Position numbers and translations under genes: made by a program | Assembly: GCF_014842915.1 (NCBI RefSeq) | Contig: NZ_JACYXI010000003.1 | Coordinates: 1 to 64,000 of the forward strand | DNA from: Roseibium litorale | GTDB taxonomy: Bacteria; Pseudomonadota; Alphaproteobacteria; Rhizobiales; Stappiaceae | Direction of reading: 5' to 3' | Length of the DNA: 64,000 nucleotides | Shown here: piece after piece, positions 8,456 through 12,564 of the stretch | How positions within the stretch are numbered: position 1 is the stretch's first letter | Layout: the number at the start of each line of letters is the position of its first letter | The notes under the pieces: model-generated | The model's input: only the letters and a program-made list of their open reading frames with translations | Database searches by the model: none | Told to the model about the DNA's origin: nothing

Positions 8456-8577
8456 GATTTCAAGTCCCTGTTGTGAAAAGACATGACGCTGCGACAAAAA
8501 GGGGTGACCATAATCGACAATCGTCTTTAATGTCAGGAGATATCATTGACGGTTCGGTTATGTACAGGAGCGCAAAC

Positions 8578-9924
8578 GTGAAATTCGGGCTTAGCACGCC
8601 GTTTAGAACATTATTGAATTTGGAAACGGAAGCTGTTTCCGTTCACCGGAATGAGGCTTTCGCGGTCATGGACGCAGCCCTTCGTCAGATCACGTTGCCA
8701 ACAGACATATTGAGCGCACGCCTGATTGATGCCGGAACAAGTGAGTCCAAGCTGGGATTTCGTAGCCTCGACGAAGATCAACTCGCTTGGTTCAGCCGGC
8801 CGGTATTGGTCCTAACGCTTGATCCGGCGGCGGTGGCGAGGAAAATCGGCGGGCTTGCCCCTGAAACGCAGCTTAGGCTTGGCTTGTCTGGATTTTCGAT
8901 CGAACGTGCCTATGTGGATCTCTACGACAATACCATCGCCGTGCTGTCGATCTGCGGTTCTTTTTCGCCCACAAACATAAAAGCTGATGGGGTTGCCGGG
9001 GAGTTTGAGGGCTTCTTCTCGGACATCGGCCAATGCATTTGTGAGACGATCAACAACGAATTTCTTGCGCTGTATCTCGAAAAAATGAGCGCATTTGACC
9101 GAAAGAGAAATAAAATCAAGGTGCTGCGTCCTGCGCGGCGCTTTGAAGTCTTTTCCGATTTGAACGCGCATCCGTTTCCAAGATGGGACGAGACCTTGTC
9201 ATCCTGTTTCTGGACGCACCGGGTTTTCTCGAAACAGGATGTCGATGCGAACGACGGGTGTGCCGCGCTGCTGCGGTACGACGAGCTGGTGAAGAACGGC
9301 GTTCATGATCGGGATGGCTCGGTGTTTCACGTCGGAACCAGTTTTATTTCCAGGGACGATCTGCTCGACCAGTTCCTGTTCGCTTCGAGCATTGCACAAT
9401 ACTATTTCTGCCTGTTCGATATCATGAACGCCAACCAAAATCAGATCTTCCGGCTGATCTCGCTGGAGAACAACAAGAACAAGCTTCAAAAACTCATAAG
9501 GCGATACAGCCGGATGGAAGATTTCATCGGCTACATCGAGAATGAATTAATTGATGTCGAGTTGTCCCTTCAGCATGTCCGGAAGACTCATTTTGTTCAT
9601 TTGTGCCAAGTTTTCAGTATCTCGCGGATTTGCGATGTCATCAAGGGAAGGGACGTCATCGTCGAAGCGCGAATCAAGCGCAGGAGCTATTTCGTCGGCC
9701 GCTCTGACCGCCGTGTTGTCAAATTTTTCCTGGTCATTCTCGCTTCTTTACAAGTCCTCCAATTGCTCGTTGACCTGTTTGCCTTCTCCAGCAGTCCGCG
9801 GAAGAACGCGATATACGGGCTTCACGACGTTTTCTCATGGATCGATTTCAATGTGACGACCAATATCTTTGCGTTGATACTAGTAGTTGGCGCAATATAT
9901 GCCTCCTACCGAAGCGAGGAGTGA
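8578..9924 (+). CDS. Unrecognised membrane protein with two C-terminal transmembrane helices
   Basis: No family recognised. The best start is GTG 8578, with AGGAG (8566-8570) 7 nt upstream, giving 448 residues. In-frame ATGs at 8473, 8530 and 8560 lack such a site. The N-terminal ~230 residues look mixed alpha/beta and soluble (RPVLVLTLDPAAVARKIGG; YVDLYDNTIAVLSICGSF). A long helical, charged stretch follows (around SLENNKNKLQKLIRRYSRM and FIGYIENELIDVELSLQHV). Two hydrophobic helices close the protein (FFLVILASLQVLQLLVDLF and IFALILVVGAIYASY), separated by ~28 residues. This soluble-domain/long-helix/two-helix layout recalls CorA-type topology, but the GMN motif is absent. Its stop is 4 nt before the start of the lyase-like gene, so the two form an operon. 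GC appears lower than in flanking metabolic genes. Confidence 0.75.
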   Translation: MKFGLSTPFRTLLNLETEAVSVHRNEAFAVMDAALRQITLPTDILSARLIDAGTSESKLGFRSLDEDQLAWFSRPVLVLTLDPAAVARKIGGLAPETQLRLGLSGFSIERAYVDLYDNTIAVLSICGSFSPTNIKADGVAGEFEGFFSDIGQCICETINNEFLALYLEKMSAFDRKRNKIKVLRPARRFEVFSDLNAHPFPRWDETLSSCFWTHRVFSKQDVDANDGCAALLRYDELVKNGVHDRDGSVFHVGTSFISRDDLLDQFLFASSIAQYYFCLFDIMNANQNQIFRLISLENNKNKLQKLIRRYSRMEDFIGYIENELIDVELSLQHVRKTHFVHLCQVFSISRICDVIKGRDVIVEARIKRRSYFVGRSDRRVVKFFLVILASLQVLQLLVDLFAFSSSPRKNAIYGLHDVFSWIDFNVTTNIFALILVVGAIYASYRSEE

Positions 9925-9928
9925 CGCA

Positions 9929-11257
9929 ATGGCCGCACCGATACCCCTAGACGATTTGCGGGGTTTCGTTTCCGAATGTCAGGAACGGCGAGTTGGGCCG
10001 ATACTTTGTGAGAGACTTGCCATCGTACGGCACCGGTATACGTCCTTTTTCAAGGGCTATGATGAGCGCGAAAAGGTCTACGGTCTGAACACCTTTCCCG
10101 GGCACAGGGAGGGTGAGACGCCTACGGTGGACTATGTCGCGAACTATCAGACCGACCTGATTGAAAACCATTGCCTGCCAACCGGCGACTATTTTCCGGA
10201 AACGACCGGTATTTTCGTGTCATTCGCCAAGGCTTACAGCATTTCTTTCGGTGGAACGCTTGTCTCGGACCGGTTCTTTGAGTTGCTGCTTGGTCTACTC
10301 GGTGAGCCGACCTATTCTCCGTCCATTCCTCGTGACTTGTCCTATTCCTCAGGGGATGTAGTGCCGGGCGCCCATTGGAGCCGTCAGACATTGGCGCTCC
10401 TTCCCGACTATCGGTTGCAGGCCGGAGAGGGCATGGCGCTGATCAACGGAGCATTCGTTCATGTGGGTGCCGCCGCGTGGATTTTCACTTTGCTTAACTC
10501 GGACTGGCTGAGGTTCGTATCCAATACCTGCCGTTTTCATAGCTTGTTTCCGGTACGGCGGGTGGCTCCCTGGCCCAGTGACGGTTCAATGCTGCCGGAT
10601 CTGTTCCGTCTCATCCATGACGGTGCTCCTGAGGCGGTCGACGATACGCAGGGGCGCGTTTCAATGCGCAGCTCAAACGAAATTATCGCCGCCTATTCCG
10701 GAGCCCTTTCTGAACTCGCGCTCGAGATCCAGACCGGATTGATGAAATCGACCGGTAATCCGCTCATTTTCGAAGGCCAGGGCAAAATCGATGTTGCTCC
10801 GAGTGGGTCGTTCGTGAATCCAGCGCTTGCGCTGGCGCAGGGCAAGTTAATAGATGCTTTGCTGATGGTAGCGTGGTTCGTAACTCGTCGAGTTGATTAT
10901 GTTCTGAGCGGCGAGATCGAATGTATCAGCCGCGATTTCGCCAGCGATGAAAACCCGCTCGGATTGATCCAATGGCCAAAGATCGCCAAAGCGCGCCTGG
11001 AAAGGATGCGTTTGAGGCACGCGCGCCGGGTCTTCGTTTCGGGGGATAGTACGTCGCATGGTATCGAGGATTTCTGGACGAATGGTCTCAACCTTGTAGC
11101 CGAGCTTGAAGCAATCCGGCAGGACTTCGATGCGCTGTTGCAGATGGAGGAGCATGTGATCCGGGCTGCGTCGGTAGGCGATGTAGATGTTGATCTGTGT
11201 GCATCATCCGGAAAATTGTTCCGCGAAGCAGAGCTTGCAGCCTTTTCTTTTCTATAG
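9929..11257 (+). CDS. Divergent aromatic amino-acid lyase-like protein (HAL/PAL superfamily) with altered MIO triad
   Basis: 442 residues from ATG 9929, with AGGAG at 9917-9921. Landmarks of histidine/phenylalanine ammonia-lyases appear in the right order. VYGLNTF (50-56) corresponds to the catalytic-tyrosine loop. PSIPRDLSYSSGDVVPGAHW (131-150) corresponds to the P-x-x-G-S-x-G-A-S-G-D-L-x-P-L segment, with Ser140-Ser141-Gly142 where the family has Ala-Ser-Gly. GMALINGAFVHVGA (168-181) carries the conserved Asn173. VSMRSSNEIIAAYSGAL (244-260) keeps the Arg but not the QDxYS tyrosine. SGSFVNPALAL matches the SGGNFHG block, and DSTSHGIEDFW (373-383) matches the DSIPTSxxQED block. Family members form a cofactor (MIO) from Ala-Ser-Gly and deaminate or isomerise aromatic amino acids. 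Whether this protein is active is unknown. It lies 4 nt after the membrane-protein gene. Confidence 0.72.
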   Translation: MAAPIPLDDLRGFVSECQERRVGPILCERLAIVRHRYTSFFKGYDEREKVYGLNTFPGHREGETPTVDYVANYQTDLIENHCLPTGDYFPETTGIFVSFAKAYSISFGGTLVSDRFFELLLGLLGEPTYSPSIPRDLSYSSGDVVPGAHWSRQTLALLPDYRLQAGEGMALINGAFVHVGAAAWIFTLLNSDWLRFVSNTCRFHSLFPVRRVAPWPSDGSMLPDLFRLIHDGAPEAVDDTQGRVSMRSSNEIIAAYSGALSELALEIQTGLMKSTGNPLIFEGQGKIDVAPSGSFVNPALALAQGKLIDALLMVAWFVTRRVDYVLSGEIECISRDFASDENPLGLIQWPKIAKARLERMRLRHARRVFVSGDSTSHGIEDFWTNGLNLVAELEAIRQDFDALLQMEEHVIRAASVGDVDVDLCASSGKLFREAELAAFSFL

Positions 11258-11535: not shown

Positions 11536-11622
11536 AATGCGTCGGTCAGCATCGACATCCGGGGGCTCTACAAGATCTTCGGTCCGGACGGTGCTGAGCT
11601 GGTCGGGAAGGTCAAGGAAGGG

Positions 11623-12564
11623 ATGTCCAAGTCCGAACTGAACGAAAAGTACAATCATGTGCTTGGGCTCAAGGATATCAACATCTCCATGCCAGCGGGG
11701 AAAATCCAGGTTGTGATGGGGCTTTCAGGTTCTGGAAAGTCCACCCTGATCCGGCACATCAACCGCCTGATCGAGCCGACCACCGGTGAAGTGCTCTATG
11801 GCGATGCGGATGTCTGCAAGATGTCCAAGATGGAGCTCCGGCAGTTCCGGCGGCTCAAGACAGCTATGGTGTTTCAGAAATTTGCGCTGCTGCCGCACCG
11901 CACGGTTCTGAAGAACACCGTCTACGGCTTGGAGATCCAGGGCGTTAATTCGAGAGAGGCCGAACAGCGGGCTGCCAAGTGGATTACCCGTGTCGGTCTC
12001 GAGGGCTATGAGGATTATTATCCCAATCAGCTTTCAGGTGGCATGCAGCAGCGTGTAGGCCTAGCCCGGGCGCTGGCCAATGATTCCGACATCCTGCTCA
12101 TGGATGAGGCCTTCTCCGCGCTGGATCCGCTGATCCGGATGGACATGCAGAGCGTTTTGCTGGACCTGCAGAAGGAGCTGCACAAAACGATCGTCTTCAT
12201 CACCCATGATCTGGACGAGGCTCTGCGGCTTGGTGACCGGATTGCCATCCTTCGCGATGGAGAGGTTATCCAGCAGGGAACTGGCCAGGAAATTGTCCTG
12301 CGGCCGCAGGATGAGTATATCGCCAGCTTCGTCAAGGAAGTGAACCGGGGACGCGTGATCATGGTCGACACGATCATGGATAAATCCCGTACCCTTCCAG
12401 ATGGCCTGACTATTCCGCGCGGTGTGCGTCTTGAACATGCGGCCAAGCACTTTGCCGATACCGGCCAGTCGGAAGCCAATGTGATCGACAAGAAGGGCAT
12501 GCCGGTCGGTGTTCTGACCGTACAGGACACGATCTCCGCGATGGTGACGCCGGCTGAGCACTGA
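11623..12564 (+). CDS. proV: Glycine betaine/proline-type ABC transporter ATPase, 5'-truncated and orphaned
   Basis: From ATG 11623 the frame gives 313 residues with all nucleotide-binding motifs: Walker A GLSGSGKST, signature LSGGMQQRVGLARAL and Walker B ILLMDEAFSALDP. It also has the ProV/OpuAA hallmarks INRLIEPTTGEVLYGD and THDLDEALRLGDRIAI. A short C-terminal CBS-like region follows (GRVIMVDTIMD onward). ProV proteins normally begin ~30 residues earlier with a LYKIFG motif. That stretch is encoded in phase from 11536 but has no initiation codon before an in-frame TAG at 11524. Translation from 11623 would have GGAAGG abutting the ATG, a poor spacing. No proW permease or proX binding protein lies beside it. 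It is likely a decaying remnant, though a shortened product is possible. Confidence 0.7.
   Translation: MSKSELNEKYNHVLGLKDINISMPAGKIQVVMGLSGSGKSTLIRHINRLIEPTTGEVLYGDADVCKMSKMELRQFRRLKTAMVFQKFALLPHRTVLKNTVYGLEIQGVNSREAEQRAAKWITRVGLEGYEDYYPNQLSGGMQQRVGLARALANDSDILLMDEAFSALDPLIRMDMQSVLLDLQKELHKTIVFITHDLDEALRLGDRIAILRDGEVIQQGTGQEIVLRPQDEYIASFVKEVNRGRVIMVDTIMDKSRTLPDGLTIPRGVRLEHAAKHFADTGQSEANVIDKKGMPVGVLTVQDTISAMVTPAEH

Follow-up and report, generated by a model that had tools for sequence, protein, structure and literature searches.

A histidine ammonia-lyase-fold protein with a Ser-Ser-Gly triad and its paired membrane protein in Roseibium litorale

Can a protein of the histidine ammonia-lyase (HAL) fold that carries Ser-Ser-Gly (SSG) at the place where this family forms its 4-methylideneimidazole-5-one (MIO) cofactor from Ala-Ser-Gly (ASG) still be a working enzyme, and what would it do beside a membrane protein? 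The question is raised by two adjacent genes of Roseibium litorale, here called P1 (the HAL-fold gene) and P2 (its membrane partner), which lie in a stretch of 64,000 nucleotides (contig NZ_JACYXI010000003.1, positions 1 to 64,000; hereafter the window). The reading that we find most plausible, although we hold it tentatively, is that P1 is catalytically competent and probably still MIO-based, acting as a lyase or in the manner of an aminomutase with altered specificity, and that it forms one unit with P2. The pairing of so altered a HAL relative with a membrane protein suggests the reuse of a familiar enzyme design for another job.

Fold, clade and active site of P1

P1 belongs to the aromatic amino acid lyase superfamily (PF00221; 67.7 bits against a curated cut-off of 27.3) and its predicted overall fold is the HAL fold, as a first-pass annotation of this DNA had claimed. 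A close match to an ordinary ammonia-lyase, looked for as a refutation of that annotation, did not appear: P1 scores 51.6 bits with the NCBIfam equivalog hutH (cut-off 539.15), 27.0 bits with Phe_D_beta_mut (cut-off 800) and 16.7 bits with Tyr_2_3_mutase (cut-off 501), and its genome carries an ordinary HAL as a separate gene (613 bits; ASG). Judged by scores and residues, P1 is a protein within PF00221 and the HAL fold that is not HutH, phenylalanine ammonia-lyase (PAL) or a tyrosine or phenylalanine aminomutase (TAM, PAM).

A scan of genome contigs with P1 returned 11 related loci, five of them close at 36-40% identity (two Hyphomonas-like, one Henriciella, one Ponticaulis and one alphaproteobacterial metagenome-assembled genome, MAG), and a survey of 105 Hyphomonas-family genomes added two further members, G504 and G511. 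Together with the window these make up the SSG clade of eight genomes, which fall into five lineages (L004/L005/G511; L006/G504; L007; L008; window) with P1 identities mostly of 33-44% between lineages and 58-93% within them. In a tree with long branches flagged, a branch with 100/100 support separates the eight rows from 23 HALs, in line with the distinct branch that had been proposed; P1 is under purifying selection (dN/dS ~0.17, L004-L005).

To locate the pocket, HAL numbering was transferred to the clade by motif and hhalign (E 6.8e-24). All 12 mapped pocket positions are invariant among the eight members, against 62 of the 430 other positions (Fisher p 2.2e-10), and at 10 of the 12 the HAL residue itself is kept, namely the equivalents of Tyr53, His83, Ser143, Gly144, Asp145, Asn195, Gln277, Arg283, Phe329 and Glu414. 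In P1, whose open reading frame is exact, these include Y51, S141-G142-D143, N173, Q241, R247 and E380, alongside S140 and V244. The Ser and Gly that form the MIO ring and the subsequent Asp are all present (S141, G142, D143), as are Phe295, His81 and Glu380, in every member, and an invariant Tyr precedes the triad. The first-pass annotation had described the altered triad, the missing second Tyr and the retention of Arg247, Asn173 and Glu380, all of which hold across the clade. SSG, Val and the pocket are, on these alignments, features of a clade and not a single mutation.

The 23 HALs were picked by GASGDLAPL and have ASG by construction, their other pocket residues being free; in an alignment with the first triad residue unfixed, all 19 rows outside the clade (duplicate loci counted) had ASG, as did the five ordinary HALs of our phylum survey. 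On a strict ASG definition P1, like its seven relatives, would not count as a MIO enzyme. The first triad residue does not supply the methylidene of MIO, and so the non-ASG triad, altered as claimed, is weaker evidence than the annotation implied; the Tyr-to-Val change and a deletion in the loop before the triad are the stronger departures. AdmH has a Thr-Ser-Gly triad.

Published mutants bear on the same positions. In a study of GkHAL, changes at Y52, H82, N194 and E411 abolished activity and Q274N, R280K and F325Y only reduced it (PMC11432326); P1 keeps the equivalents of all seven sites (Y51, H81, N173 and E380 for the inactivating four). It also keeps the equivalent of RxPAL S153, whose change to Ala abolished MIO and activity, according to a paper that describes the ASG triad as strictly conserved in MIO enzymes (PMC3903478). 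Because these residues are kept, the bench data support competence indirectly, and the conservation of the pocket as read from sequence favours a working enzyme. Against that description, the clade combines a fixed alternative triad with the fixed loss of a catalytic Tyr, and searches of the open PubMed Central literature turned up no mention of an ammonia-lyase with an SSG triad.

From these residues we infer how such an enzyme could work. Ser140-Ser141-Gly142 would most likely still cyclise to a MIO-type electrophile, with Ser141 and Gly142 supplying what Ser143 and Gly144 supply in HAL; Tyr51 would be the loop base and Arg247 would hold a carboxylate, while Val244 and the new His59-Arg60 would remodel the pocket to accept something that is neither His, Phe nor Tyr. 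P1 would work as a unit with P2, a membrane-anchored partner of CorA-like layout, in a contact or functional link that would go beyond co-inheritance. Most simply, a small compound derived from an amino acid would be made or removed by P1 and carried or sensed by P2.

Comparison with known enzymes of the fold sharpens the differences. Compared with HutH (EC 4.3.1.3), P1 is shorter, has SSG instead of ASG and Val instead of Tyr280, lacks one residue ahead of the triad, carries a new PGHR, has a membrane partner and is without hut context; from the tyrosine and phenylalanine 2,3-aminomutases SgTAM and AdmH it differs in lacking the Tyr280 equivalent, and the window has no biosynthetic cluster. 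We consider it highly improbable that P1 is an ordinary histidine or phenylalanine ammonia-lyase that has drifted beside an unrelated gene. PF00221 membership and the existence of some fast-evolving HALs are compatible with such drift, but the hutH score lies far under the NCBIfam cut-offs, the genome has its own HAL, the SSG rows split from the 23 HALs at 100/100 and the pairing with P2 is invariant. Identity as an ordinary HAL was rejected on the hutH score, the pocket residues and the separate genomic HAL.

Pairing with a membrane protein

All eight genomes have P2 immediately upstream of P1, with an overlap of 23 nt in six, an overlap of 4 nt in L008 and a 4-nt gap in the window, the P1 starts of the homologues having been chosen among internal Met codons. 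Separate P1 and P2 profiles (E 1e-25 and 0.001, respectively) run against the 105 Hyphomonas-family genomes found both genes in the same six and neither gene alone in any, although the profiles were built from members of four of these six genomes, so that only G504 and G511 test the pairing independently. A pairing unlike hut or PAL contexts had been suspected from the window, and here it recurs across genomes. The distance matrices of P1 and P2 correlate at r 0.93, as expected of adjacent co-inherited genes. In open PubMed Central literature we found no report of a HAL fold fixed beside a membrane protein, and as far as those searches show, and no further, the pairing is new for this fold.

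P2 homologues have about 450 residues and two C-terminal membrane helices, and P2 is under purifying selection (dN/dS ~0.12, L004-L005). A Pfam scan of P2 returned no family, and no sequence-profile match was found between P2 and the CorA of the genome. In both of its fold lists, designed and SNARE helix bundles aside, a CorA-like architecture comes out on top, albeit weakly. The likeness to CorA/MRS2 channels lies in a predicted soluble alpha/beta part, helices, a long stalk into the first transmembrane helix (TM1), a short loop and a second (TM2); between TM1 and TM2, however, the nine aligned rows have a conserved [IVP]xG and no GMN. With neither a profile match, a Pfam match nor GMN, P2 as a true CorA is unsupported by sequence.

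This architecture invites readings in which the pair signals. In one, the HAL fold, its triad altered and its active site rebuilt, would have been recruited into a self-contained membrane module of two genes, where P1 would make or remove an amine ligand and a CorA-like P2 would sense or conduct it; this we regard as improbable, but were it true it would turn MIO-type chemistry from amino acid metabolism to signalling or the gating of transport. In another, which we judge decidedly improbable, the pair is a signalling or defence module in which P1 would make or destroy a ligand that opens P2 as a CorA-like effector. The CorA-like architecture that heads both fold lists, the two-gene form, the patchy distribution and the apparent transfer as a unit are consistent with it, and so is the analogy of layout to the two-part arrangement of CorA and SAM-AMP-degrading enzymes in type III CRISPR (PMC10600005). 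PADLOC defence profiles gave no convincing match (the best reached 15 bits at E 0.0028 and spanned 62 helical residues in P2), and identity with a known defence protein was dropped on that result.

A third alternative makes P1 a non-catalytic, ligand-binding pseudo-lyase that would sense an amino acid and regulate P2. The loss of the second Tyr, the obligate membrane partner and the lack of pathway genes common to the loci would fit, but the invariance of all 12 pocket positions takes in Tyr51 and Glu380, which binding alone does not need, and we think it quite unlikely.

P2-like proteins also occur without a HAL-like neighbour (L055:1498-2916 and L056:1486-2928, both in G395, and L065:1354-2574 in G1087). 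P2 matched 2 of 385 genomes in the class survey, including the two P2-like proteins of G395, and 2 of 269 in the phylum survey, including one weak match in G1087, both genomes being without P1. Since such proteins exist further out, P2 seems to be the older gene and P1 the added partner. They appear to represent a family of membrane proteins not described before, for which Pfam has no model (scanned for L055 and L056).

Relatives without the MIO serine

A contrast within the superfamily comes from five weak, actinobacterial matches of the P1 scan, L010 to L014, in Pseudonocardia, Actinomycetospora, a Nocardiopsaceae MAG and two Rhodococcus. They are PF00221 proteins (133-151 bits; 16-20% identity) and read EPG (three), DPG (one) or EAG (one) at the triad; with no Ser there, they would be unable to form MIO. 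All five have also lost His83 and Glu414, four have Tyr for Phe329, and the place of Tyr280 is Val in four and Ala in one, while Tyr, Asn, Gln and Arg are retained. The SSG clade, that is, keeps the Ser, His and Glu that these relatives dropped. In a three-group tree the SSG clade (100/100), L010-L014 (100/100) and the HALs (97/98) each form one side of a branch; as the tree is unrooted, with long branches flagged, it names no sister pair among the three.

Several points weigh against a competent MIO enzyme acting with P2. Tyr280 of HAL is Val in all eight SSG members and Tyr in all 23 HALs compared, and both hhalign and MAFFT place a one-residue gap directly before the triad, a loss that may hinder MIO cyclisation. 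The P1 model is of moderate confidence, dropping to poor over residues 368-382, where E380 lies. The gap and the GEGMALING motif of the SSG clade recur in L010-L014, as does its Val in four of the five, which suggests that this part of the family can live without MIO; precedent for a MIO-free mechanism exists in ergothionase, a HAL-like enzyme that is reported to lack MIO (PMC13405746). On the side of the pairing, the shared membership of profiles and genomes counts here too, and no metabolic neighbour gene is common to the member loci, so that they give no hint of a pathway.

On these grounds P1 might be a MIO-free enzyme as reported for ergothionase, using acid-base elimination alone, with SSG as an ordinary loop. 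The Glu/Asp-Pro/Ala-Gly relatives, which keep their Tyr, Asn, Gln and Arg without the Ser, argue for it, as does the ergothionase structure 6s7j, which is among the structural matches to P1 and belongs to an enzyme of trimethylamine elimination. The SSG clade, however, keeps in all eight members the six residues Ser141, Gly142, Asp143, Phe295, His81 and Glu380, the MIO-less relatives have lost the Ser, His and Glu among these, and the tree does not show the two groups to be sisters. We regard a MIO-free P1 as unlikely, though a real contender, and continue to prefer the MIO-type enzyme. Together the SSG clade and L010-L014 give one protein family a natural gradation of active sites, from those able to make MIO to those unable to, on which one could test what residues are really required for MIO formation and for elimination without MIO.

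The L010-L014 loci gave only chance-level matches to a P2-like gene. By names read from sequence and not searched, L013 and L014 have a major facilitator superfamily (MFS)-like transporter and a 392-residue regulator-like gene upstream, and L014 a FAD-oxidase-like gene downstream; the adjoining transporter-like and regulator-like genes suggest a catabolic role for these two enzymes. All five proteins are likely annotated as histidine ammonia-lyases.

Distribution, arrival and genomic setting

The surveys, made with a P1 query or profile on overlapping genome samples, found the gene to be rare. Within the family to which the window belongs, 39 of 87 genomes gave a match at E 0.001, the only full-length one being in the window's genome; the other 38 gave partial matches of at most 26.9 bits, and 13 of the 14 other loci fetched were ordinary HALs, the fourteenth (L021) giving no readable open reading frame. 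The own-class survey returned 2 of 385 genomes at E 1e-25 (the window and one ordinary HAL). In the own phylum 6 of 299 genomes matched, one through the window and five through ordinary HALs. In the order of the Hyphomonas genome 6 of 348 matched, the same six as in the family survey.

Nine congeners, out of 44 in the own-family survey, were compared with the window. All nine have a dehydrogenase gene on one side and proX, proW and proV on the other, seven have a glyoxalase-like gene, and none has P1 or P2. Nucleotide similarity to them ends at ~8456 and restarts at ~11549-11566, a few codons into proV, and proX and proW are absent from the window; from this break and absence we conclude that the pair displaced proX and proW together with the start of proV. 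As it sits where all nine congeners have these genes, the pair probably arrived as a unit. The truncated gene looks like the remnant of a displaced betaine/choline ATP-binding cassette (ABC) operon. GC content is 0.506 and 0.551 for the pair against 0.592 for the window, which by itself says little, because in all members P2 has a lower GC content than the DNA around it. A search of the acquired segment for mobile genes and long terminal repeats found neither.

Table 1. Coordinates of the features discussed, in the window unless a locus is named
Feature	Position	Strand	Remarks
P2 (448 aa), with a soluble N-terminal part, long helices and, at the C-terminus, two membrane helices	8578..9924	+	CorA/MRS2-like predicted architecture (weak); no GMN motif
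AGGAG, ribosome-binding-site-like	8566..8570	+	7 nt before GTG start at 8578; start agrees with N-terminus of homologues in alignment
P1 (442 aa), HAL fold, with SSG as triad and HAL Tyr280 replaced by Val	9929..11257	+	
GAGGAG, ribosome-binding-site-like	9916..9921	+	7 nt before ATG at 9929, overlaps P2 end; read from sequence
Tyr loop Y51-G-L-N-T-F-P-G-H59-R60 (HAL Tyr53 loop)	10079..10108	+	Y51, G52, T55, P57, G58, H59, R60 invariant 8/8
Ser140-Ser141-Gly142, at place of MIO-forming Ala142-Ser143-Gly144	10346..10354	+	8/8, alignments
Val244-Ser-Met-Arg247 (HAL Tyr280, Arg283)	10658..10669	+	Val 8/8, Arg 8/8
proV-like ABC ATPase without start	11549..12564	+	first in-frame start codon 11623; right-hand edge of acquired segment
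PF00221 proteins without MIO Ser	L010:1069-2541, L011:7953-9362, L012:3005-4432, L013:7740-9332, L014:7701-9164		

A phage or plasmid origin of the pair was rejected. P1 had no relatives in viral contigs and phages, no PHROG match and one weak partial match (24.5%) among plasmids; P2 had no relative in viral contigs and plasmids and a single 18-bit PHROG match over only 54 residues.

In the Hyphomonas-like loci L004 and L005 (L005:3364-16951) the pair is flanked on one side by FecI/FecR-like genes and on the other by genes for a TonB receptor, an S9 peptidase and an Asn-synthase-like protein. The peptidase is weakly like the lasso peptide isopeptidase Atxe2 (31 bits), and the Asn-synthase-like protein resembles a macrolactam cyclase (121 bits, where the cut-off is 300). 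A lasso-peptide link as the function of the pair was set aside, as it is confined to these two loci and the remaining members have other contexts. In both Henriciella (L006) and G504 (L048) a phosphoglycerate-mutase-like gene follows the pair on the right, from which we take it to have been inherited vertically there.
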